64,000 nucleotides of DNA from Powellomyces hirtus. Taxonomy: Eukaryota; Chytridiomycota; Chytridiomycetes; Spizellomycetales; Powellomycetaceae. Shown here one piece after another: positions 974 through 33,580 of this stretch. Position 1 is the stretch's first letter; each line of letters opens with the position of its first letter. Made by a program: the position numbers and the translations under genes. The stretch covers positions 310,001 through 374,000 of the forward strand of contig JAHLKG010000025.1 in assembly GCA_025526995.1 (NCBI GenBank), read 5' to 3'. The notes under the pieces were generated by a model. It was not told the DNA's origin and searched no databases. It worked only from the letters and a program-made list of their open reading frames with translations.

Positions 974-3900
974 CTAGGTTCTCTTACGTTGCCTGGCTGC
1001 TAGCCTTTGGCCGCGGTCCTCTCCGGGGTGCTCCAGGAGCCATTCTTCCAGTGCGGTCGTCCCCTTCACGTGTGCATACGGCTCCCATGTGTTCTGGGTG
1101 CTGTCGTAACCTGTCCACTTGACTAAGAACTGCTCGGTGTTCCTGTGCCATCTGGCATTTAGGATCTTGTCTACTTGGTGAGTCTCCTGACCGTCTTCGT
1201 CCTTTTCGGGCTCAGGCGGAGCGGTGACCTGTCTGTACGGGGTACCGCCTGGATCATGGTACCGTCCCAGAATGCCGACATTAAAAACTGGGTGCAACCC
1301 GGTGAACTCCTTGGGTAGTTCGAGCTCGTAGGTGTCAGGATGCGGCCCCTTGCCGCGTACTGTGAATGGCCCAATCCATTGCTCAGCCAGCTTTTTGTTC
1401 CTTGTGGTGACGCTGGTAATCGCGATACCCTCACAATGGAGTAAGACCTTGTCACCCTCTCGGTATGCTTCCGTGTGCTTCTTGCAGTCGTAGTACTTTG
1501 CCTGCTGGTCCTGTGCATCTCGGAGCCGTTGCTGCACAATGCAACTCACGTCGGCGAATTCCTTAACCCGTCTCTCCACGGCGGTTCGTGCCGATTGCCG
1601 TATCATCTCTCCGGGGTTAGGTGCTACCCATTGGTTCGGTACCCAGGGAACGCGGCCTAGGTCAATCTCGAAAGGGGATAGTCCCGTCGACGTCTGCGGC
1701 GTTCGGTTGTAGTTGTACTCGAGTGTGGGGAGTAAGCTCTTCCAGTTGGAGCCAGCATAGTCAAGAAAGGGGCCCATGAATCCCTTGATCGTCTTGATGG
1801 TGTTCTCCGCCTTGCCGTCGGTCTGTTGGTGTCGTGCCGACGAGAGTTCTTGCTTGACGTCGAGTGCCCGCATGAGGTAGCGCCAGAATTCTGATAGCCA
1901 CTTGGGGTCCCGATCGCTCACGATGGTGTGGGGTAACCCCGTGTGGCAAAATGTCTGTTCCAGAAAGAGTTGAGCCGTCTCCTGAGCTGTAGCGCGTGTG
2001 TTAGTAGGTAGGAGTATCACGCGGCATGAAAGGTAGTCGACGATGAGGAGTACGGCATCTGCCGTCTTGGTCAGTCTCTCGCCGGTGTGGTGCAGGGTTC
2101 TTCGTCACGTCGGGCTCTATCCGAGGTTCCCCCCCCCTTAGAGCCTGACGTGGGGAAGAATATATCCATGCCGATTTGTTGCCAACAAGCGTCGGGGATC
2201 AGTAAGCTGCGGAGGAAACCGATGGGCGCGGTTCGCTTGTGACGTTGGCAGGTAGGGCAGGTGCGGACATATTGGTACACATCACGTTCCATGTGGGGCC
2301 AGTAGTACGACTCCAGAAGTTTGGCGAGCGTCCCTTGGACACCAGAGTGACCACCGTTCGCAAGGGAGCCGTGATGAATTTGAAGGAGTGGCCCCTGCAA
2401 GCTGTCGGGGACGTACCGACGGTCATGGTACATCAAGAATCAGTGCGGAGGGGGGCCCACTGTCCGGAATCGGCGTGCATGGCCGGATAGGTTCTCCGGG
2501 GAACTGTTGATGGTTAGTAAGATGTTTTGGCCGAAATCATCCGATGCGAGCGCTTGGGTCCAGTCCGCATCGGTCGGCATGTGCGTCGTGATGGGCTTCT
2601 CCGTCTGCACAATGGCTGTGACCACGTTGATCTTGGCCTGGCAGGTTGCACACTTGGGGTCGTAAGTTGGGTCGTGACTGAGGAAGTCGGCAATCGAATT
2701 CCATGTGCCGGGGAGGTATTCCACTGAGAAATCAAACTGTTGGAGGAACTCGACCCAGCCTGCTTGGCGGCGTGACAGGTGGGGTTGTTCCTGGAGATAG
2801 ATCAGGGATTTGTGGTCAACAAACGCGCGGAATGGGCGGCCGATGAGGTAATGGCGGTTGGCGCGGATGGATTTGACTAGTCCCAGCAGTTCTTGTTCAT
2901 GCACGGGGTATTGGGTCTTGGCGGGTTGCATCTTGCGGGAGTAGTATGTCACTGGGCGAAGTTGTGGAAGGTTGGCTAAGCCCGATTTGGTGGTTGGTAG
3001 TGGGTGAGGGTAAGGGAAATCCCCTTTAGCCGGCTGTGCCAGCCATCTGCCGTAAGCGTAGCCCGATGCGTCTGTGAACAAGTAGGTGTCGAGCGCCGGG
3101 TCGAAGTACGCTAGGGTGGGTGCCGAGGAGCATAATTCCTTTAAGCGATTGAATGCTCGATCTTCCTCGTCACCCCACTGCCATGGGCGGTTGCCAGATT
3201 GCAAGTTCGTTAGTGGCAGGGCAATCTGTGCACACTCGGGAATGTATTCCTTGACGTAGTTGACGAGGCCCATGAAGCTAAGGAGCTCCAGGGGGTTGGT
3301 CGGGCGAGGCCGTTCCCGGACCGCGGTCACGTTGGAGGGGGCGATACTCAGGCCATCCTTGCCGACTCGGTGGCCGCAGAACTCGACTTCGTCAACAGCC
3401 CATTGACATTTACTGGGTTTGACGTGAAGGCGATGTTCCGCCAAGGTCTTGAGGATCTCGTCAACGTGCTGAATGTGCGAATTCATGTCGGTGCTGAATA
3501 TGAGAATGTCGTTGAGGTATGAGATCACGTAGGCGTCATACTTGTTGCCCAAGAGTTTGTTGGTGAGTCGCTGGAATGTAGCAGGTGCATTAGTTAAGCC
3601 GAAAGGTAGAACATTGTATTCGAAGTGTCCAAAACGTGTTCAGAACGCTGTTTTCTCCCTATCTTCCGGTCGAATCATGATGCAGTGATACACGTCACGG
3701 ATGTCGATCGCGGTAAATACCCGCATGTTGACAAGCCTGTCGCGCAGTTCCGAGAGGTTCGGAAGTGGCGTGGCATCCTTGTGGGTCATCTTGTTCAGTG
3801 CCCGGTAGTCAATGCAGCAGCGTAAGCCGCCGTCCTTCTTTGGGGCAAATAGGATGGGCGCGCCCCACGGGCTGCGAGAGTGTGAGATCCAACCCTTGTC

Positions 3901-4902
3901 CATTAAGCGCTGCATCTGCTGGCCGAGCTCGTCCAATTTGTCCGGGCTCAAATGTCGGAGTGGCTGCATTACGGGCTTCGAGCCGGGTTTGAGCCGAATG
4001 GTGAAATTGTCCTCGCCTTGATCCAGAGGCATGCCTGACTGCTCGGTGAATAACATTGTGACGTATTTCTCTAGGGTTGTTCAGAGTGGATGGTTGGCCG
4101 CCAGCGCCTCTAGCGGGTCCTCTTGATCTGCTGCCTTGGCTTTGGCGTTGGTGTGGCGTTGCTCCTCCAAGATTGCCCTCTTCTTGGCGTCGACCATCTG
4201 TACGAATTGAGCCTCTACGACTGGAATCGCATCTACGATGTGTACCTCAAAGACTCCGGTGATCTCGCCCTTCTTCATCAAGCGTTTCCATTGCTTGGTC
4301 GTGTAGATTCCCTCTGCATTGAGTGCTGGCTTCACTGGCTGGAATCTGCGGGGCCGTATCTCTTGTGGGGAGAGCAGGCGGGCGGTGCACGTGGACGGTG
4401 CTTCCCAATGGCGATTAGTTGATTTGGCTTGAAGGCTGAGGGTCTGGCCGTCGTGGTAAAATGTCATTGTTGGGAAGCCTTCTTAATTGAAAAGCCCTCG
4501 AACATCCAATCCCAATATGAACGGCAAGCCGAGTATGACATCGACCCTGATCGGTGCGACCACAAACGGTATGGTGCCTTCCCGGTAGGTAATCTTCTCC
4601 TCGGTGAACACCGAGAGGTCCCCACAGGTCATCTTCATTGCACCATAGTTTCCCGCTCTATCGCCCCATCGGACCTCCAGCGGAGTTGGAGAGGTGTAGG
4701 TCCGGAGGCCGTGCTTGGCTGCCCAAGTGTTGCTGATGATCAAGGTGTTACACCCGGTATCGATTAGGATGCGGGCAAAGTGCCCTTGTATCTTCCCGTG
4801 AACCGCAAATGTCTTCCTGTGGATGCGGGGTCCCGGCCTGTCCGTGGGGATCTTGTCTTGTATCCGGGGTTGGGGTACTGAGACGGTGCAAACGTTCAGC
4901 AC
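974..4902 (-). pseudogene. Gypsy Pol polyprotein (protease-RT-RNase H-integrase-chromodomain), broken
   Basis: One frame runs from 4902 to about 2130, interrupted by TAA at 4483 and TGA at 4081, 3640 and 2440; a second frame continues from about 2130 to 974. Protease has the DTG motif in ILIDTGCNTL. Reverse transcriptase carries QPLRHLSPDKLDEL-type N-terminal sequence, but its active site reads YLND instead of YLDD, so a catalytic Asp is lost. RNase H retains LFTDASG. Integrase has the H-H-C-C zinc finger (HHGSLANGGH, then CPTCQRH), the Asp in IVSDRDPKW and the Glu in QTDGKAEN. The C-terminal chromodomain reads HQVDKILNAR, then FLVKWTGYDS and NTWEP; the first cage aromatic is replaced by His. 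Three of four stops are TGA where CGA (Arg) is plausible, which fits C-to-T decay. Confidence 0.9.
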
Positions 4903-6152
4903 CCGGGGCGAAAATCCGAGCTGTTGACTGAGCCCCCGTCGCTGACCGCATCGTCCCCGGGCTCTTCGGTGATCTCTACAGGGGCGGCAAACGTTCTATG
5001 CTCACCATTCTTACCTTTACCTGCTGAGCTACCACGGGCATAGTGCCCCTTGCCTCCGCAGTTGAAACATTTGTTGTGTTCACGACGTTCGTTATAGACG
5101 ACGCGCTTGCGGTCTGAGATCCCTTGGTGGTTGTCGGTACCGCACATGGGACGACCAGAGCCATAGGGGGTGTGGCGACCCCTTTCTTGTGCTTGATAGT
5201 TCCCTCGATATACCTGAGCCGGCTGGACTGCAGCGTACTGACGTCTCCTTCCGTCGGGGGTTACCCGCGTGACATCGTCCGCATAGCCTCGAATCCTGTA
5301 GCATAGTAGGGCTTCGTTCTGTAGCTCGGTGATCGGGATCTCGGCGCCATTATTCCTCATGATTGCGGCATAGCAGTGGTCCCGAATGCGCTGGCCGACA
5401 TGGTTGGTCGCAAATCCCATCAAGAAATAGTCACGCTCTTGCCTTGGGGTAAGCCGCTCCTTGTCGTCGAGCGTCGCAATCTGGGCCCAAAGGGTATTGA
5501 ACTTGGCGATATACTCCAATATGCTATTAGTGAAAACCAGCCGCTTCATCTTTGCTTCTGCGGTGTTTCGTAAGTTGGCGGGGTAGAAGCGGATGCGAAG
5601 GATCCTCGTGAATTCTTCCAATATCGTGGGCTGGTCGCCGGCATCTCTGAGCATTTGCCACCATTTGTCGGCGGTTTCCTTGAGGTACCCCGAGATGTGG
5701 TCGACGTCCCGGTGGTCCGTCCTGAAGTCGGTTGCCTCAAGGTAGCGCGTGTGGGCCTTCAAGAACTCATCAACCTTTGACACCATTTTTTCACTGTTTC
5801 CTTTTCCTAACCCTAACCCTAACCCTAACCCTTTTCCTAACCCTAACCCTAACCCTAAGTGTGTCAGCTGCTTGCGAAGGTTCTCGCGGCGTTTTTTCTC
5901 GGCTTGCATTCGTGCGCAGTTTTCTTCCGCCAGGATGATATCGACGTGTGGTGTTGCAACCACTGCTTGGACTGGAGTCGGAATCATTGAGAGAAGGGCT
6001 TTGAAGCGGGCCTCTTCCATTGCGATCTGTTCCTGCAGTAGGCGTTGGGTCTCCGCCAGTTGTGCAGCCAACATTGAAACGGGGTTGTCGGTCGGTGTGT
6101 CGACTTCGGGTTCTCCTACTGCCATTGGGCTGTTCCTGGTGCTACGTGCCAT
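4896..6152 (-). CDS. Gypsy Gag with zinc knuckle and telomere-repeat-encoded Gly-Leu tract
   Basis: This 418-aa open frame starts at ATG 6152, 29 nt inside the 5' LTR. A Retrotrans_gag-type region covers the middle (WWQMLRDAGDQP to RLTPRQERDYFLMGF). A CCHC zinc knuckle, CFNCGGKGHYARG in sequence, lies near the C-terminus, except that the last expected Cys is not present at the usual spacing. Residues roughly 98-118 are an alternating Gly-Leu tract encoded by in-frame TTAGGG repeats. Gag is in a different frame from Pol and the two overlap by a few bases, so Pol would need ribosomal frameshifting or is displaced by decay. Unlike Pol, Gag has no internal stop. It would package element RNA in cytoplasmic particles. 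Confidence 0.88.
   Translation of the reverse strand: MARSTRNSPMAVGEPEVDTPTDNPVSMLAAQLAETQRLLQEQIAMEEARFKALLSMIPTPVQAVVATPHVDIILAEENCARMQAEKKRRENLRKQLTHLGLGLGLGKGLGLGLGLGKGNSEKMVSKVDEFLKAHTRYLEATDFRTDHRDVDHISGYLKETADKWWQMLRDAGDQPTILEEFTRILRIRFYPANLRNTAEAKMKRLVFTNSILEYIAKFNTLWAQIATLDDKERLTPRQERDYFLMGFATNHVGQRIRDHCYAAIMRNNGAEIPITELQNEALLCYRIRGYADDVTRVTPDGRRRQYAAVQPAQVYRGNYQAQERGRHTPYGSGRPMCGTDNHQGISDRKRVVYNERREHNKCFNCGGKGHYARGSSAGKGKNGEHRTFAAPVEITEEPGDDAVSDGGSVNSSDFRPGC
5804..5858 (-). repeat. In-frame telomere-type (TTAGGG)n tract inside gag
   Basis: On the plus strand this is four CCCTAA units, then CCCTTTT, then four more CCTAA/CCCTAA units. On the coding strand it is two copies of a roughly 30-bp unit, each four TTAGGG hexamers ending in TTAGGAAAAGG. 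TTAGGG translated in this phase gives Leu-Gly repeatedly, and each AAAAGG junction gives Gly-Lys-Gly. TTAGGG is the usual telomere repeat of most filamentous and early-diverging fungi. Confidence 0.95.
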
Positions 6153-6163
6153 TGTTGTCGTCT

Positions 6164-6180: not shown

Positions 6181-6455
6181 TGTAATAATACTAGGTCCGT
6201 TGCCAGAGTCTAGTCTTCTATTTGGGAATTCCCTATGGCTAATTCTACTGTAAGATCTCTAAGTCTTGAATACGCCCTCATTGAAGAATTCCTACTTTTT
6301 TTCTGGACCGTGGAGTGGTCCCGGTCACGTGATGGCCATCTGTGGCCATCCCTAATGTCTAGTACCCTTTGGGATGCTGACGCTAGCATCCATCCCGCGC
6401 GAGGCCCTTCCCAGCGCATATCTAGGCTTAGGCTGGTGAGCCACGCCTCATTACA
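6181..6455 (-). repeat. Gypsy 5' LTR (275 bp)
   Basis: Begins TGTAATAATA and ends CTCATTACA on the plus strand, giving TG..CA termini. It matches the solo LTR at 15069-15343 along its full 275 bp with scattered substitutions. It contains a CACGTG hexamer at 6326-6331. Because the element is on the minus strand this is its 5' LTR and should carry the element promoter. Confidence 0.93.
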
Positions 6456-8764: not shown

Positions 8765-8959
8765 AAAAAGGGGGATTGTTATTTCCACCCCCCTCCGGTT
8801 AGTTCCACCCCCCCCCCGGTGGCACAGCGCGACACGTGACTTGTCGCCGCGTCGCGATGAAATTTAAATAATATATAAAGACCAGAATCATGAACGGCAT
8901 GCCCATTGTGACTTCCTGACCCAGAAAAATCGTTTAAGCACACCGTTCGCGATCCTGAC
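8765..8959. repeat. Promoter-like repeat module, copy A (empty Harbinger site)
   Basis: This module matches, in reverse orientation, the two flanks of the Harbinger element (15507-15588 and 19161-19318). It runs from a G/C-box-like segment (TTATTTCCACCCCCCTCCGG) through CACGTG at 8833-8838 and a TATA-like AATAATATATAAAG at 8867-8880 to GTTCGCGATCCTGAC. In this copy the TTA target at 8876-8878 is uninterrupted. A short ATG frame begins 5 nt beyond the shared segment. Confidence 0.85.
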
Positions 8960-9283: not shown

Positions 9284-9648
9284 AGTATTGGAATGTTGAG
9301 ACTTGCGTACTCAACGTTTGGTCCTTACATTAGATCCTTACTTGGATTCTCCGACTAGAACGCGTGACCGTCATACCGGTAACGCTAAGAGCTGAATTGG
9401 ATCACGTGTGATCACGTGATTGGAGAAAAAGTAGATTAGAACGCTCGAAGCGAGACATTACCGATAAGACTTTAAGACATAAAATACATTCACATACATT
9501 ACATCTCCGTGCATCTGACAACGCTACATTGTCAACTGCATCACAGAAGAGCTCTGTAAACCCCCTTTACAAAGTATACTGGAGGCCACATCGAATTCGG
9601 CCAATCCTCTGCATTTCCGATAAAGTACTGGAAACGACGATATCTCCA
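9284..9648 (+). repeat. Copia 5' LTR (365 bp)
   Basis: Starts (A)GTATTGGAATGTTGAG and ends ATATCTCCA. It matches 14592-14956 over 365 bp with only about nine differences by eye. The first base is A where the 3' LTR has T, so the canonical TG is lost here. Two overlapping ATCACGTG motifs lie at 9401-9420. Confidence 0.92.
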
Positions 9649-9667
9649 TTAGGTTATGAGCCCTGAG
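9649..9667 (+). promoter_or_regulatory. Copia primer-binding site (internal half of initiator tRNA-Met)
   Basis: The bases after the LTR read TTAGGTTATGAGCCCTGAG. The 14-mer at 9652-9665 is the complement of CAGGGCTCATAACC, the anticodon stem-loop of fungal initiator tRNA-Met. Drosophila copia is primed by the cleaved 5' half of the same tRNA, so a half-tRNA primer is the natural reading. Confidence 0.8.
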
Positions 9668-9766: not shown

Positions 9767-11733
9767 ATGCCTACTGCAAGATCTCCCATTCAAGGAGTGC
9801 AGACCCGCCAACAAGCCCGTCAAGCCACACAAAAAGCCCAACGGGGTCCTGACGCTGAAGAAGACGTTAATATTGATGCCTCGATCTACCATGATTCCCA
9901 CGACGCAGATGCCGATGTGGATGGGATGAATCATGGAGAAATTCATGCAGACTCGGCGATAGTACCGTCCGAAGTACCGACTGACATTGTCATGGAAATT
10001 CTGCAGAGGTTCAAGATGGAAATCGACGAAAAGCTCGACCTTGGATGGACAGGTTGGAGAGGACTTTATTGACTAGTTCAAACCCTCTCGCTACATCAAC
10101 TTCCCATCAACAACCCGAGAAGCACGAAAAGCCTCATATCGGTGGTCATCCTATGGCCGTCTCACCGATGGGAAGCCCAAAAGCGGGCCTTGAGTACCCT
10201 TTTCTACATCAACACATTACTCACGGCGAAGTTGAAGCCCCAGTTGCCCCTCACTTTCGTCCATCTTCCCCAATGGAGAGCACAACAACTACGAGCAGCA
10301 GAAAGAGCGATGATCAAGACGCACAACGTACATCATTCGCATACTTCAAATCTGCAATTGATGCAGTATCTACATTCGACGGGACGGGAAATCTCTCAAA
10401 ACTTGCCAACTTCATCGATCAACTTACTCTAGTCTTTCGCCTAAAACCTGTATCTGAAGAAGAACAACTCTCATTCATCTTCACGAAGCTCTCTGGCGAA
10501 GCAAAACAATGGTATCGTAATCATCAGAAAGATGCCAAACAAGGGATGGTGGAGCCCATCACGGATTGGGAATCCTTCAAGCCTCCATTCCTCTAGCGTT
10601 ACCAACCAAGCGATCACAAAGAAACTTTGCTCACTCAACTTGAAAGACTCCAACAAGGAAGTCATTCCATCTCGCAGTACAATACCTCATTCACGAAGAT
10701 TACAAGTCAAATCCCCTTGAAGGTGCCGTTCGAAATCTACAAGTGGTTTTACCTTCGCGGAATGAATGAACATCATGCAGAGCTCGTCAGAACTCAAAGT
10801 TTCAAGGATCTCCATGGCCTCATGGCAGCTGCCAAGCGTCTGGATAACGGAAGTAACAAGAGTAACCAAAATAACCGGTTCGCCAAAAAGAGCGAAAACA
10901 TCGCGCTCGAAGCCCAACCTTCAAAGAAAGACGGCTCAGGTCCCAAGAAGACCGACGCGAAGAAGACCACAGACTCGAAGAAGAGACAGAACTTCCCCTG
11001 TTGGTTATGCAATTCGAATGAACATACCCCATTCAATTGTCCCCTCAAAGCCAAGGCAGTCGAAGCCTTAAAACCCGCTGCTAATGCCAACATTGCAGAA
11101 GCACATAACGCCACTACATTGGCTTACCTGGATTCGGGCTGCTCACAGCACATGACAAATGACATTTCCATTCTCGAATCCTACGAAGAGCACTCAACGA
11201 GCGTCAGATTTGGAAACAACGCCTTTCTTGATGCCAAAGCGAAAGGGAACGCTATCTTGAAGCTTCCAGATGGAGATGTACCTCTCACTGATGTTCTCTA
11301 CGTTCCGAAACTCGCCAAAACTCTCATCTCGGTCTCCGCTCTCGCCAAAGATGGAAAGAGAGTCACCTTTGAAGATGAGAGCGCCGTCATTCAAGACTGC
11401 AATGGCACTACAAATGACATCACCATACCTCTTGTTCGAGGAATGTACCACATCTCGCCAACTCCGATGGCTTTCGCTACTCAAACTTGCTCAAGGACAA
11501 ACGCGTCCAATGTACCGACACACGCGTCGAAAAATACATCTACCGAATTGACAAAATGGACAAACGCGTCCAATGTACCGACACACGCGTCTGATACATC
11601 GATTCAAGCGCTCAACCTGTCAACAGACGCTACCGGCATCTCGATCACGCGTTCTACTTCGATCCAAGCCACGTCGGAGGGGCCGGCCGCCCCAAATGGG
11701 GGGCCAGCCGGCCAGCCCCCCACTGGAGAGTGA
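9767..11733 (+). pseudogene. Copia Gag and protease region, broken
   Basis: Gag starts at ATG 9767 (MPTARSPIQGVQTRQQARQA). The frame shifts near 10040, where the sequence continues as MDRLERTLLTSSNP in the next phase. A Gag core follows (YFKSAIDAVSTFDGTGNLSK, EEEQLSFIFTKLSGEAKQWY). TAG at 10594 interrupts it in frame, and it resumes as LLTQLERLQQGSHSISQYN. A zinc knuckle CWLCNSNEHTPFNC lies near 11000. The aspartic protease motif AYLDSGCSQHMTND near 11120 is the copia-type DSG site and is intact. The frame ends at 11733 in GC-rich sequence after a duplicated segment (11498-11529 and 11561-11592). Confidence 0.88.
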
Positions 11734-11880
11734 GAGTTGTGGGTGCTGTGGTGGGGGGCAGGCTGCCCCAAAGGCATCGGATGATGCCAAGGATGGTGCC
11801 CCCTCGGGGGCACCATCCGCCGTTGCCGCCGCCACCGCTGTTTCGGCGGCTTCTTCTGGGGCTGGTTCTGGTCCCTCTTC
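11498..11880 (+). repeat. Duplicated and hairpin-rich insert between protease and integrase
   Basis: A 32-bp segment beginning ACAAACGCGTCCAATGTACC occurs at 11498-11529 and again at 11561-11592. It is followed by GC-rich sequence containing GGCCGGCC, GGGGGCAGGCTGCCCC and an inverted repeat in which GGATGGTGCCCCC is followed two bases later by GGGGGCACCATCC (11792-11819). Base composition here differs strongly from the rest of the element. It encodes Ala/Gly/Ser/Pro-rich linker in the pol frame. Confidence 0.75.
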
Positions 11881-14554
11881 TCCTGTCAACAAAGGAACCC
11901 TCTGGCATCACCGATTGGGCCATCCTGGCACTCACATCATGAAGCAACTCAAGCTCCCAATGACCAACGAAGTCTGCAAAGGTTGCGAGTTTGGTAAGCA
12001 CAAGCGCTCACCATTCAACGGTACGATGACACGGTCCAAGACGCCACTCGATCGCCTACATTTCGACCTGAACGGTCCGCACATACCCGCGGTTGGCAAT
12101 GAGAAATATGCCCTCGTTGTGATTGATGACTATTCACGCTTCACATGGATCTTCTTCTTGAAGACGAAGAGCGAATCTACTGCAAAATTGATTGAATTCA
12201 TCAATTTCATCGAAAAACAGACCAACAAAAGGGTCAGACAACTTCATTCCGTTCGAGGGGGGGAGTTTGTCAATCACGATCTGAAAGAATTCATTTCGAA
12301 AAAGGGCATCCTGCACGAACTCACCGCTGCAGATTCCCCACAGTCCAACAGTGTAGCTGAAAGGTTCAACCTCACCCTGTTCGACACCATTCGTTCATTG
12401 GAACACTCATACGGCATCCCAAAACAACTCTGGACCGAGTTAGCGGCTACATCAGTCTACTTACGGAATCGCCTACCCCACAAGTCCAATAACAACATTT
12501 CGCCGTACGAACGGCTCAACGGCGAAGAGCCCTCACTTTCTCACCTTCGTGTGATTTGGGCCGATGCCTTCGTGCATCTTGTCAAGAGAAAACAAGTCTC
12601 AAAGTTGGCACCGCGCGCCACACGTCTCAAACTCATCGGTTACGAATTTGACGGCGCTTACCGCTGTTGGGATGACAACCGTCAAGAAATAGTCATTTCT
12701 TGCAATGTAACGTTCGACGAAATCTCAGCACTCGAACTCGCGAAAGACTACATTCCGCCCGAAGAACTCTACGAAGTCGAAGAGATTCTCGACTCACGTG
12801 ATGGCCCGGAAGGCCCCGAATTCCTCTGCAAATGGCTAGGATTCGAAGACGAAGATAAGACATGGGAACCGCTCGAAAATGTCAATCATTTGACAGTCTT
12901 TGCTGACTACATCAACGAGAAGACGGCGATCGCTCTTTCGGCTGCAAGTACCAAAGAACCCCAAACCTACAAACAAGCGCTCTCATCAGACGACACGCCA
13001 AAGTGGACCGAGGCCATAAATGCTGAATTGAAGTCCCTTCATACCAATGAAACATGGGAAGTCATTAACCCCAAATCCTTATCGCACAATCAACGGCCCA
13101 TCCGCACTAAATGGGTATTTAAGATGAAGCGAGACCTGAATGGTCAACCCCAACGATACAAGGCCCGGCTTGTAGTGAAAGGCTTCGAACAATGCTACGG
13201 CATCGACTACAACGAAACCTACGCTCCGGTTGCCAAGATAGCTACCCAACGCGTCCTTCTCGCTCTTGCCGCCAGTCTAGGCTTGAAATGCCATCAAATG
13301 GATGTAGTAACCGCATTCCTGAATGGGATTGTTACCGAGACCATCCTAATCTACGCACCTGAAGGCTCTGGCTTTCCGCCCGGGACCATCCTTCGACTCC
13401 GAAAGGCCCTCTACGGTCTGAAACAAGCCCCGCGTGAATGGTACTCCCTACTTCACAAAGAACTGACTTCTTTGGGATTCAAGCGCCTGGCAAATGACAA
13501 TGCCGTCTACATCAGAACTCTACCTGAAAGTGACTCATCGCAGTACATCTCCGTCTACGTCGACGATCTCCTCATTTTCGCAAAGACCGAATCGGAAATC
13601 TCGTCAATCAAGACATCCCTGCACAACAAGTTCAACATGACAGACCTAGGCGAAGTCAACCACTACCTAGGAATGAGAGTTCGACGCAATTACTGAAGGC
13701 ACGTCATCTATCTCGATCAAGAGTCATATGTAAATGACATCCTCGAGCGCTTTGGTATGCAAGATTGCAAGCCCGTCAACACTCCGATGGACCAGACCAA
13801 GCTCGAACCCTACGAAGTCGAAAATACAAAGACTTCACCTAACCTGCAAGAAGGAGAATATCGCGAAATCGTTGGTTCTCTCATGTACCTGATGATATGC
13901 ACGCGTCCTGACATCGCTGTCGCAGTCAGTATGCTTTCTTGCTTTGCAAGCAATCCTTTGCCTCAACATCTGCAAGCTGCAAAGCGCGTTCTTCGCTACC
14001 TACGGGGAACATCAGATTACAGCCTCTGCATCGGCGGAAATAACGTCACCCTTCATGGCTACAGCGATGCCGATTGGGGAAACAACATCATTGATCGACG
14101 GTCAATCACTGGCTACCTTTTCTACATTGGAAATGCGGGCCCTGTTACTTGGGCTTCAAAGCGCCAACCCATCGTTGCTCTCTCATCTACCAAAGCTGAA
14201 TACATGGCACTTTCATTCGCCACTCAAGAGACAATCTGGCTTCGCTCACTTCTGCAAGAACTCCAAATCCCCAAATATCTCGATGAGAATGCTTGACCTA
14301 CAACGATCTACGAAGACAATCAGTCATGCATCTCGTTGGCAATGAATCCCGTGCATCACGCCCGTACCAAGCATGTCGACAAGGAGATTCATCTGGAGTA
14401 CTTACCCACCGCTGAAATGGTAGCCGACTCACTTACGAAGCCTTTACCGGCCCCGGCATTCAAATACCATCGCGAAAGCATGTGCATCAAGCACTGCAAC
14501 AGCACCATCACGCCAATGACGAAAGCGTCCATGACGGAGCTCCCGAATGAGTAA
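11573..14554 (+). pseudogene. Copia Pol (integrase-chromodomain-RT-RNase H), broken
   Basis: One frame runs from 11573 to 14554, with TGA stops at 13694-13696 and 14294-14296. The integrase zinc finger reads WHHRLGHPG then CKGCEFGK. The catalytic core has the first Asp (HFDLNGP) and Glu (NSVAERFN), but the motif usually RSDxGGEF reads HSVRGGEF, so the second catalytic Asp is Val. A chromodomain (12770-12922) follows. RT has TKWVFKMKRD, ARLVVKGFEQ, QMDVVTAFLNG and an intact YVDD at about 13556. RNase H continues after the first TGA (YSDADWGNN, LSSTKAEYMALS). KHVDKEIHLEYLPTAEMVAD lacks roughly a dozen residues normally found between KHID and the conserved E.EY.PT segment. Confidence 0.92.
12770..12922 (+). 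other. Chromodomain inside copia Pol
   Basis: Fifty-one codons in frame with integrase and RT read YEVEEILDSRDGPEG, then FLCKWLGFEDEDKTWEP, then LTVFADYINE. This follows the chromodomain pattern of HP1 and chromoviruses. The three cage positions are Tyr (YEVEEI), Trp (CKWLGF) and Phe (LGFEDE), so a methyl-lysine cage could form. Gypsy chromoviruses carry such a domain at the integrase C-terminus; copia elements normally do not. There is no stop or frame change between it and the flanking integrase and RT sequence, so it is part of the polyprotein rather than a later insertion. Confidence 0.9.
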
Positions 14555-14581: not shown

Positions 14582-14591
14582 GGACAGGGGG
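14582..14591 (+). promoter_or_regulatory. Copia polypurine tract
   Basis: GGACAGGGGG directly precedes the 3' LTR and is the expected plus-strand primer site. Confidence 0.7.
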
Positions 14592-14956
14592 TGTATTGGA
14601 ATGTTGAGACTTGCGTACTCAACGTTTGGTCCTTACATTAGATCCTTACTTGGATTCTCCAACTAGAACGCATGACCGTCATACCGGTAATGCTAAGAGC
14701 TGAATTGGATCACGTGTGATCACGTGATTGGAGAAAAAGTAGATTAGAACGCTCGAAGCGAGACATTACCGATAAGACTTTAAGACATAAAATACATTCA
14801 CATACATTACATCTCCGTGCATCTGACAACGCTACATTGTCAACTGCATCTCAGAAGAGCTCTGTAACCCCCCTTTACAAAGTATACTGGAGGCCACATC
14901 GAATTCGGCCAATCCTCTGCATTTCTGATAAAGTACTGGAAACGCCAATATCTCCA
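14592..14956 (+). repeat. Copia 3' LTR (365 bp)
   Basis: Begins TGTATTGGAATG and ends ATATCTCCA, with TG..CA ends intact. It pairs with 9284-9648; differences by eye include CCAACTAGAACGCATG against CCGACTAGAACGCGTG. CACGTG lies at 14711-14716 and 14721-14726. Confidence 0.93.
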
Positions 14957-15068: not shown

Positions 15069-15343
15069 TGTAATAATACTAGGTCCGTTGCCAGAGTCTA
15101 GTCTTCTATTTGGGAATTCCCTATGTCTAATTCTACTGTAAGATCTCTAAGTCTTGAATACGCCCTTGTCGGAGTATTCCTGCTTTTCTTCTGGACCGCG
15201 AGGCGGTCCTGGTCACGTGATGGCCATCCGTGGCCATCCCTGAGGTCTAGTACCCTTCAGGATGCTGACGCTAGCATCCATCTCGCGCAGGGCCCTTCCC
15301 AACGTGTATCTAGGCTTAGGCTGGTGAGCCACGCCTCATTACA
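15069..15343 (+). repeat. Solo LTR of the gypsy family
   Basis: This 275-bp LTR begins TGTAATAATA and ends CATTACA, homologous to 6181-6455. It is bounded by a perfect 5-bp duplication, CAGAC at 15064-15068 and 15344-15348, so it is a clean insertion reduced to one LTR by LTR-LTR recombination. It differs from the 5' LTR of the resident element at a number of sites, so it came from another copy. CACGTG is at 15214-15219. Confidence 0.93.
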
Positions 15344-15492: not shown

Positions 15493-15506
15493 GGTGAGGA
15501 GAGGGT

Positions 15507-15588
15507 CAGGATCGCGAACGGTGTGCTTAAACGAGTTTTCTGGGTCAGGAAGTCACAATGGGCATGCCGTTCATGATTCTGGTCTTTA
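15507..15588 (-). repeat. Promoter-like module copy B, left part (split by Harbinger)
   Basis: GTCAGGATCGCGAACGG to GGTCTTTA matches the reverse complement of 8876-8959 almost perfectly. The module resumes at 19161 after the transposon. Confidence 0.88.
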
Positions 15589-15625
15589 GAGCATCTTTAA
15601 CGGCAGGCATTTAATTGTGGCACAG
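15589..15625 (+). repeat. Harbinger left terminal inverted repeat
   Basis: 37 bp, exact reverse complement of 19124-19160. CACGTG follows at 15630-15635. Confidence 0.95.
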
Positions 15626-15734: not shown

Positions 15735-17138
15735 ATGCTTGACAAACTCTGGGCCAAGTACGATACAAGGCAGTGGGGTAGGCGCATTTTACAATGGAGA
15801 CTGGAACAAAAAGAAGATGTGGAAAGAAAAACAGCAAGAAAGCGCCTCCGCAATCGTGACCGCCTTAGGGCACTCGGACAAGAGCGTCTAATTCAAGACT
15901 ATTTCAGCGCTGATTGCATCTACAGTGAAAAGGATTTCAGGCGCCGCTTCCGAATGTCACGTCAGCTTTTCCTGCGTATCCAAGCAGATCTGTGCAAAAG
16001 TGACTGCTACTTTAAACCAGTAAGTACGCTACTAAGTACCCGTTGGCCACGCAGTACGTGGCCACGCAGTATGTTTGTATTAATCACAAATTCTGCAATA
16101 GCGTCGTGACTGTACAGGACTTACTGGTCTTTCATCCGAACAAAAGCTTACTGCCGCACTACGCATGTTCGCCTACGGTGTTGCAGCAGATGCTGTGGAT
16201 GAGTACGTTCGCTGCGCCGAAGCTACTGCAACAGTTGCATTACACCGCTTCTGTGCTGCCATTGTGCACATCTATGCCGCTACTTACCTGAGACCGCCAA
16301 ACCAAAATGACCTAAATCATATATTGCGGATCAACAGGCAACGTGGTTTTCCTGGACTGCTTGGTTCTCTGGACTGCATGCTCTGGGCATGGAAGAACTG
16401 TCCTCGAGCGTGGGCCGGTCAGTTTCAAGACAAGGAAAAGGTTCCGACAATTATTTTGGAAGCGGTTGCAACCTACGATTTACGAGTTTGGCATTGCTTT
16501 TTCGGCGTCCCCGGCGCTAACAATGACATTAATGTCTTGGACCACTCCCCTCTCTTTGATGACCAACTGGCTGGTCGCACACCAAACCTTGATTACGAGA
16601 TTAATGGACATCAATACACTCAAGGTGTGTTGCGTGATGCGTTGTGCGTACCTGCGCATTGCATGGTACAATACTGCATAGCATATACTCACGAAGAGCA
16701 TTACTAGGATATTATTTGGTGGATGGAATATACCCTCCTTGGACGATGTTTGTGCAGACGTTCTCACAGCCTGACTGCGAAAAAAAGAAGTTCTTCGCCC
16801 AAATGCAGGAGGCAGTGCGCAAAGACATAGAGCGTGCCTTTGGAGCATTACAAGTGCGGTGGCACATTATTCAACGGCCCGCTCGTGGATGGCATCGCGC
16901 GCAACTGGGAAATATCATGAAAACCTGTGTGATTTTGCACAACATGATTATTGAGGATCAAGGAGATGCGGCAATGGAAGATATAGCAGAGGATATTGCC
17001 GACATTAACATCTCTTTGGGCGGTTGCGAAGAAACATCGCAACAAATAAGGAGAAAAACATTGCGTGACTCTGTGCTTCATCATCAGTTGCGCGCAGACC
17101 TGATACAACATTTATGGGAATGGAAGGGTAGTCAATAA
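15735..17138 (+). CDS. PIF/Harbinger DDE transposase
   Basis: Three exons, 15735-16019, 16102-16624 and 16708-17138, join in phase to give 412 aa. The introns are 82 and 83 nt with GTAAGT..TAG and GTGTGT..TAG ends. ATG 15735 is the first in-frame Met. The N-terminal part is basic (RKTARKRLRNRDRLRALGQE) and includes the typical FRRRFRMSRQLFLRIQ. The DDE_Tnp_4-type core has D186 in GSLDCMLWAWKNCP, D237 in GANNDINVLDHSPL and E311 in RKDIERAFGALQVRW, so all three catalytic residues are present. GYYLVDGIYPPW is restored only after splicing the second intron. It would cut and paste the element in the nucleus, with the Myb/SANT partner at 17876-18949. Confidence 0.93.
16047..16073 (+). repeat. CCACGCAGTACG motif pair in transposase intron 1
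   Basis: CCACGCAGTACG at 16047-16058 and CCACGCAGTATG at 16062-16073 lie wholly in the first intron. Related copies lie in the intron of the convergent Myb-like gene. Confidence 0.85.
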
Positions 17139-23443: not shown

Positions 23444-23526
23444 CCGGCCATAGCTCAGCTGGAAGAGCATCAGACTGTAAAACAATAGCTATCTGGGTGT
23501 CCCCAGTTCGATCCTGGGTGGCCGGA
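23444..23526 (+). tRNA. tRNA-Tyr (GTA), intron-containing
   Basis: The acceptor stem CCGGCCA/TGGCCGG pairs perfectly, with discriminator A. The D arm is TAGCTCAGCTGGAAGAGCA and the T arm CCCAG-TTCGATC-CTGGG. The anticodon loop CTGTAA places GTA at 34-36. A short intron of about 10 nt (AACAATAGCT) follows position 37, the canonical site, and removing it restores the TCAGA/TCTGG stem. A T-run follows (TATTTTTTC), as for RNA polymerase III. Confidence 0.93.
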
Positions 23527-24332: not shown

Positions 24333-24415
24333 TCCGGCCACCCAGGATCGAACTGGGGACACCCAGATAGCTATTGTTTTACAGTCTGATGCTCTTCCAG
24401 CTGAGCTATGGCCGG
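24333..24415 (-). tRNA. tRNA-Tyr (GTA), intron-containing, second copy
   Basis: Identical over 83 nt to 23444-23526, including the intron, but in inverted orientation. The flanks differ outside the gene. Confidence 0.93.
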
Positions 24416-33497: not shown

Positions 33498-33580
33498 TCC
33501 GGCCACCCAGGATCGAACTGGGGACACCCAGATAGCTATTGTTTTACAGTCTGATGCTCTTCCAGCTGAGCTATGGCCGG
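33498..33580 (-). tRNA. tRNA-Tyr (GTA), intron-containing, third copy
   Basis: Identical over 83 nt to the copies at 23444 and 24333, including the short intron after position 37. It sits between the divergent CTF18 and m-AAA protease genes. Confidence 0.93.

Follow-up and report, generated by a model that had tools for sequence, protein, structure and literature searches.

A chromodomain-bearing Ty1/copia lineage with a gypsy-type Gag in a chytrid-like fungal genome

Described chromodomain retrotransposons and the element in the window

Among Ty1/copia retrotransposons, the CoDi-A elements of diatoms were described in 2009 as having a putative chromodomain at the C-terminal end of the integrase, and no other copia was at that time seen to have one, according to the accessible sections of that paper (Llorens, PMC2774666). 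The available portions of two later papers, from 2017 (PMC5348765) and 2024 (PMC11541908), name only CoDi for copia chromodomains, and an excerpt of Maumus 2009 (PMC2806351) presents CoDiI as a lineage confined to diatoms, with Ty1 and Copia as distant relatives. Chromodomains outside the chromoviruses are also described, in excerpts of PMC5348765, PMC11541908, and PMC12477816, for Chronos of oomycetes, ECR-1, and other brown-algal gypsy elements; all of these lineages are gypsy, whereas the element reported here is copia. The accessible part of a fungal LTR survey covering one chytrid mentions chromodomains for gypsy (PMC3248453). No report of a fungal copia with a chromodomain was found in literature that leaves out most subscription journals, and there is no such case in the available text of PMC6875170, PMC11797018, PMC12477816, PMC10817607, or PMC4007536. 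Given the diatom precedent, as far as the accessible text of PMC2774666 and PMC5348765 describes it, a chytrid copia of this kind is therefore not the first.

The window, the whole 64,000-nucleotide stretch of DNA that was analysed, contains an element, here assigned to family A, with the following features:

9284..9648, +, 5' LTR (first base set by eye)
9652..9665, +, primer-binding site (by eye; 14 bases complementary to the anticodon arm of host tRNA-Met(CAT))
9985..10593, +, first part of gag, gypsy-type (Ty3_capsid, PF19259, 6.5e-8, 32.7 bits, above cut-off)
10597..11733, +, remainder of gag and copia protease region (Pfam)
11882..12001, +, gag_pre-integrs, the integrase N-terminal region (Pfam)
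12053..12340, +, integrase catalytic core (rve, PF00665; Pfam)
12521..12721, +, integrase SH3-like domain (PF25597; Pfam)
12761..12922, +, chromodomain with Tyr/Trp/Phe cage (Pfam match 12770-12892, structure matches, predicted fold)
13046..13684, +, copia reverse transcriptase (RVT_2, PF07727; Pfam)
13697..14551, +, end of reverse transcriptase and presumed RNase H region, with an in-frame stop inside (open reading frame list)
14582..14591, +, candidate polypurine tract (by eye)
14592..14956, +, 3' LTR (LTR alignment)

The first-pass annotation had placed an integrase, a complete chromodomain, and a copia reverse transcriptase in one frame, and this is borne out by the Pfam order gag_pre-integrs, rve (E = 7.9e-11), SH3_retrovirus (E = 3.9e-18), Chromo, and RVT_2 (E = 3.7e-56) in the frame 11552-13693 (+), where PF00665, PF00385, and PF07727 all appear in the sequence proposed. 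The frame is a single open one as stated, with a length of 714 amino acids from stop to stop rather than 707. Upstream of it, the remainder of gag matches Ty3_capsid (5.2e-5) and Retrotrans_gag (7e-5), both below the Pfam cut-off, and the copia protease region is marked by Pol_BBD (4.1e-20, about 11125-11355). The RNase H label is one that we take from the usual copia order; no Pfam match to RNase H was obtained in 13697..14551 of the window copy. The two LTRs differ by 8 mismatches over 364 aligned bases (97.8% identity). Decay is evident: stops lie at 10594-10596, 13694-13696, and 14294-14296, and the reading frame changes between 11552 and 11733. Inspection by eye revealed no target-site duplication for the window copy. 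The primer-binding site is complementary to tRNA-Met(CAT) genes found in this genome, and ARAGORN confirmed four of these genes; a primer site on the tRNA-Met anticodon arm corresponds to priming of the half-tRNA type, as in the Hemivirus-type copias. The element is like those copias in this site and unlike them in its chromodomain and gypsy-type Gag.

The order protease, integrase, and RVT_2 reverse transcriptase, together with two LTRs and a primer site, is that of Ty1/copia, and the polymerase is clearly copia and not gypsy. We identify the element as a Ty1/copia LTR retrotransposon in a decayed state. The copia-type Gag PF14223, which is common in Ty1/copia and not strictly defining, is missing, and Pfam matches to Ty3_capsid and Retrotrans_gag are present instead. 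With Ty3/gypsy chromoviruses the element shares a chromodomain behind the integrase, an aromatic cage, and a gypsy-type Gag, but it has a copia polymerase in the order PR-IN-RT-RH and not a gypsy reverse transcriptase in the order PR-RT-RH-IN. The copia order likewise sets it apart from Chronos, a gypsy element with aRNH and a chromodomain. It resembles CoDi-A/CoDiI in having a copia integrase with a C-terminal chromodomain (for the CoDi side, as given in the accessible part of PMC2774666), and differs in its chytrid-like fungal host, which is not a diatom, in its half-tRNA-Met primer, and probably in its gypsy-type Gag.

Other repeats are found in and around this element. Inverted arms of 96 bases, 94% complementary, flank it at 8864-8959 and 15505-15600, and a direct repeat of 276 bases begins at 6181 and again at 15069. 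Ty3/gypsy pieces (so labelled by our reading) occupy 974-6161 (-) and have a different chromodomain of their own at about 1040-1177. A Harbinger-like transposase (Plant_tran, Pfam) in two overlapping frames adjoins the copia element at 16102-17135 (+) and occurs at 21 loci in the genome. Three equal-scoring tRNA matches were obtained with Rfam (23444-23526, 24333-24415, and 33498-33580), and ARAGORN called no tRNA in the window, these three matches included.

Sequence, predicted fold, and conservation of the chromodomain

The chromodomain match (PF00385, 2.1e-11, 44 bits against a cut-off of 25.1) covers residues 407-447 of the frame, or 12770-12892, and a search of solved structures returned the chromodomain of CBX1/HP1beta at 1.7e-10. 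The Tyr/Trp/Phe cage that had been claimed for the domain holds up in this alignment, in which its letters Y, W, and F are paired with the Y, W, and F of CBX1. Because the first 50 Foldseek rows for the whole predicted model consisted only of retroviral integrases and one transposase, the chromodomain piece was folded alone. It is predicted to form three strands and a C-terminal helix, and its best Foldseek match is CBX1 with an H3K9me3 peptide; the whole model has a pTM of 0.48, and the relative placement of its domains is therefore unsure. Three aromatic cage residues in the alignment and a predicted b-b-b-helix fold are the characters of the HP1 type, and the domain is accordingly best described as resembling HP1 both in sequence and in predicted fold, and its cage is intact. 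It takes the place of the variable tail that separates the SH3-like domain from the reverse transcriptase in other aligned copias, and would stay on the integrase after protease cleavage.

All three cage positions are aromatic in 34 of the 35 chromodomain rows aligned from related elements, and the cage is unchanged in each of 30 family A copies compared. Ratios of dN/dS within family A are 0.22 for the chromodomain, 0.31 for the SH3 part of the integrase, 0.15 for the start of the reverse transcriptase, and 0.42 for the tail behind the chromodomain. Judged by these ratios, the chromodomain is under purifying selection.

Readers of H3K9me and H3K27me are not distinguishable from the cage residues, and a real and conserved chromodomain might have another role, such as reading of H3K27me or H3K4me, binding of a host protein, or tethering of particles or of silenced copies. 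The H3K27me readers LHP1, CBX7, and CDYL2 have the same fold and are found among the matches; however, the best sequence and fold matches include mainly H3K9me readers, and H3K9me3 complexes of CBX1, Rhino, Oxpecker, CDY1, Chp1, and MPP8 are among the nearest solved chromodomain structures. The slot at the integrase end is also the one used by gypsy chromoviruses, and Pre-SET and HP1-like matches in the host argue in the same direction. The host genome contains one Pre-SET match and a frame with both chromodomain and chromoshadow matches, which show it to have predicted genes for H3K9 methylation and for an HP1-like reader. We regard another role as a minority possibility of some weight, and consider it reasonably probable that the window element is a family A copy within a clade of copias with an HP1-type chromodomain, whose integration is docked on H3K9me.

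Families in the host genome and their relatives

The host genome was searched with a family A query of 218 amino acids spanning the integrase end, the chromodomain, and the start of the reverse transcriptase. At least 99 near-complete copies were found, the window copy included, covering at least 210 of the 218 residues at 79-100% identity (among the best 150 of 711 candidates), and some of them lie in open frames of 1600-1657 amino acids. That no other copy carries the chromodomain, an outcome that would have told against the first-pass annotation, is overturned by these copies. Matches of a second tier in the same search, 42% identical, revealed family B, which has open frames of 912 amino acids with a chromodomain in the same slot as in A, and occurs in at least 37 places with fragments counted (best 50 of 1107 candidates). 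Over some 880 amino acids, A and B share 43% identity, and their chromodomains share 47%; with the chromodomain of the gypsy element in this genome, both chromodomains share only 31-44%. The proposed chromodomain copia lineage is thereby substantiated, with the module between integrase and reverse transcriptase throughout family A and in B as well.

Family C is a third, abundant copia with frames of about 1368 amino acids and an acidic-repeat tail in the chromodomain slot. Like A it is a copia of high copy number in the same host; unlike A it has a copia-type Gag (PF14223, in the one copy tested), forms tight clusters, and lacks a chromodomain where its linker was read, which was possible in whole for 7 of the 11 fetched copies (L048-L058). 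The gypsy element of 974-6161 occurs in at least 95 places, the window one included (among the best 109 of 604 candidates). A further repeated frame with a chromodomain, of the YEVEKIMQHRHRRGKLQFYIKWKGY type and up to about 1050 amino acids long, was seen at loci L001, L002, L003, L006, L008, L062, and L064. One family A copy (G000:C25:464680-465333) lies within about 1 kb of the TTAGGG-repeat end (465937) of the window's own contig. The inner stops of decayed A, B, and gypsy copies seem to be mostly TGA (an uncounted impression), as expected from C-to-T decay of CGA codons, which is a hint of cytosine methylation.

A single chimeric pseudogene or an assembly join could have produced one such frame, and the window copy is decayed and has no matching target-site duplication by eye. 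Yet the same arrangement is present in at least 99 genome copies and in Powellomyces hirtus and other contigs, so it is neither chance nor an assembly join, an explanation that we rule out as having next to no probability.

The recurrence of the domain order in related copias, in P. hirtus (a chytrid of the Spizellomycetales) and in further contigs, was established by three protein searches. The first returned 10 proteins, 5 of them with PF00385, and its first six were all from P. hirtus at 54-87% identity. With a family B query, 11 proteins with PF00385 (ranks 1-10 and 12) were among the best 120 of 1271; with a family A frame, there were 20 among the best 120 of 4567, 17 of them within the first 22. 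The named chromodomain relatives are P. hirtus except for one row labelled as a bacterial MAG, which by our reading is a mis-binned contig. Judged by this similarity of transposons, the window most probably derives from the same group of chytrids, close to Powellomyces. Among the best 120 of 4567 in the third search, the gypsy-type PF03732 is present in all 14 chromodomain rows longer than 1200 amino acids and the copia Gag PF14223 in none of the 20 chromodomain rows. Five proteins of 1595-2078 amino acids (P0131, P0132, P0142, P0144, and P0146) are within the first 22 of that search without a chromodomain, and the three of them placed in the tree all fall outside the chromodomain clade. Copia polyproteins with a Ty3/gypsy-type Gag (PF03732, often PF19259) were seen in P0133-P0150, P0172, and P0119; this Gag swap across superfamilies may deserve a study of its own.

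Trees were built from integrase, reverse transcriptase, and RNase H, with the chromodomain and linker columns removed. A first tree, sampled around B and with two short rows dropped (P0002 and P0006), placed A apart from B. The second alignment had 88 rows, including 35 chromodomain rows, among them near-copies of A and of B, and non-chromodomain rows from a hand-picked sample of 50 proteins from searches 2 and 3; P0050 was dropped for its long branch, and a later tree also omitted P0202 and P0132. All 35 chromodomain rows lie on one side of one branch, with an SH-aLRT of 78, or 85 without the two further long rows. P0119 joins them at a support of 98-99; this copia carries Retrotrans_gag and an integrase tail of the ordinary kind, and no chromodomain was matched in it. 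Support for a single chromodomain clade is thus moderate, and the simplest reading of the tree suggests that the Gag was swapped first and that one chromodomain capture followed.

Separate captures by A and B would account for their separation in the first tree, for chromodomains only 47% identical, and for a one-clade support of 78-85 that is not starred. That tree, however, was sampled by similarity to B and set A beside a long branch, and A and B join once A's own relatives are added. The insertion point is also the same in both families, and gypsy-type Gag traces occur in both (the one in P0022 is weak). Two captures are on this evidence unlikely, and a copia that took up a gypsy-type Gag and then a chromodomain, once, would have spread into A, B, and their relatives. 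In a tree of 39 chromodomains and 51 columns, 27 of the 36 inner branches are open, and no chromodomain donor can therefore be named.

The same architecture of copia polymerase and integrase-end chromodomain in diatoms (from the available part of PMC2774666) would also fit descent from, or a capture shared with, CoDi-A/CoDiI, by horizontal transfer or loss elsewhere. Against this, no diatom-named row is among the matches listed (120 + 120), most of which are rows without a host name. The chytrid clade lies among other copias in the tree, CoDi being compared by description only. We consider such common descent improbable and independence from CoDi-A likely.

Copy distribution and possible heterochromatin targeting

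The chromodomain at the integrase end would dock the integration complex on methylated H3, probably H3K9me2/3, and this docking would favour insertion in heterochromatin, a mechanism already proposed for gypsy chromoviruses, for which work of Gao in 2008 is said to be the experimental case of chromodomain targeting. The distribution of copies was compared among families, with the Harbinger-like element, a DNA transposon free of a chromodomain, as control. For each list only the top-scoring candidates were taken (150 of 711 for A, 150 of 630 for C, 50 of 1107 for B, and 109 of 604 for gypsy), which tilts all of the lists towards well-kept copies. For A, 18 of 150 rows were dropped (4 of family B and 14 that were the second piece of a split copy), leaving 132; for C, 15 of 150 (12 B and 3 A), leaving 135 provisionally called C; for B, 15 of 52 (12 A and 3 second pieces), leaving 37; and for gypsy, 14 of 109 (10 of a 40% identical gypsy family and 4 second pieces), leaving 95. 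The 42 Harbinger rows were counted as 21 loci. Copies on contigs shorter than 300 kb (A 13, B 7, C 8, gypsy 9, Harbinger 2) were left out of the distribution counts.

Family C forms 28 clusters, five of them a single copy, on 27 contigs, which include 23 of the 30 contigs longer than 300 kb; contig C7 has two clusters and the other cluster-bearing contigs one each. Examples are C28:3-64 kb, C8:380-446 kb, C12:337-402 kb, and C16:513-603 kb. These clusters are candidate centromeres. Within 50 kb outside them, an area share of 8.6%, lie 56 of 119 A copies, 16 of 30 B, 32 of 86 of the gypsy chromovirus, and 3 of 19 Harbinger; inside them (3.2% of the area) are 7 A, 3 gypsy, and no B or Harbinger copies, and the score of C itself is circular there, since C defines the clusters. 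The flanks of clusters of a chromodomain-free copia are thus shared by two unrelated kinds of chromodomain-bearing element. No enrichment was found in the last 100 kb of contigs (A 19/119, 0.9-fold; B 2/30; gypsy 14/86; area 18.8%).

In the arms, a distance of 20 kb or less to another chromodomain family was seen for 27 of 52 A copies, 9 of 11 B, and 27 of 41 gypsy (random, 7-10%); for the Harbinger control, 8 of 14 copies were this close to A, B, or gypsy, versus 10% at random. The control thus shares these islands of transposable elements, and the clustering is therefore not specific to chromodomain elements. Near the C clusters, long-frame and probably young copies are less concentrated than the others in family A (7/20 vs 49/99) and gypsy (3/9 vs 29/77), as are intact copies in family B (1/7 vs 15/23), and retention is therefore part of the cause. 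Crowding of A near the clusters might then reflect the survival of old copies in gene-poor DNA and not targeting, a reading that fits both the presence of the control in the same islands and the stronger enrichment of the other copies. On the other hand, long-frame A copies are still over-represented near the clusters (7/20 vs 8.4% of random places), and Harbinger is there in only 3 of 19 cases, a small sample. We give survival an even chance, and general islands plus retention account for part or all of the copy pattern. Of the heterochromatin-targeting copia lineage that had been proposed, the crowding around C clusters is compatible with targeting, and part of the evidence favours mere retention; targeting remains plausible.

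The lineage is confirmed as real and diverse, and the class of arrangement as having a diatom precedent; the independence of the capture and targeting to heterochromatin are good hypotheses rather than results, and histone binding and a single capture are likewise inferred. The most complete version, which we put forward tentatively and hold to be somewhat doubtful in its entirety, is an undescribed, chytrid-rooted chimeric clade with a gypsy-type Gag, a copia polymerase, half-tRNA priming, and an integrase-fused HP1-type chromodomain, captured independently of CoDi-A and of gypsy chromoviruses and inserting into H3K9-methylated chromatin around C clusters that may mark centromeres. If the capture was independent, LTR retrotransposons would again have taken a chromatin reader into the same slot, now in a fungal copia. 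The combination of a chromodomain with a swapped Gag bears on the exchange of modules between LTR superfamilies, and a single genome that holds copias with and without a chromodomain beside a gypsy element with one offers a natural contrast in which the targeting hypothesis is testable.
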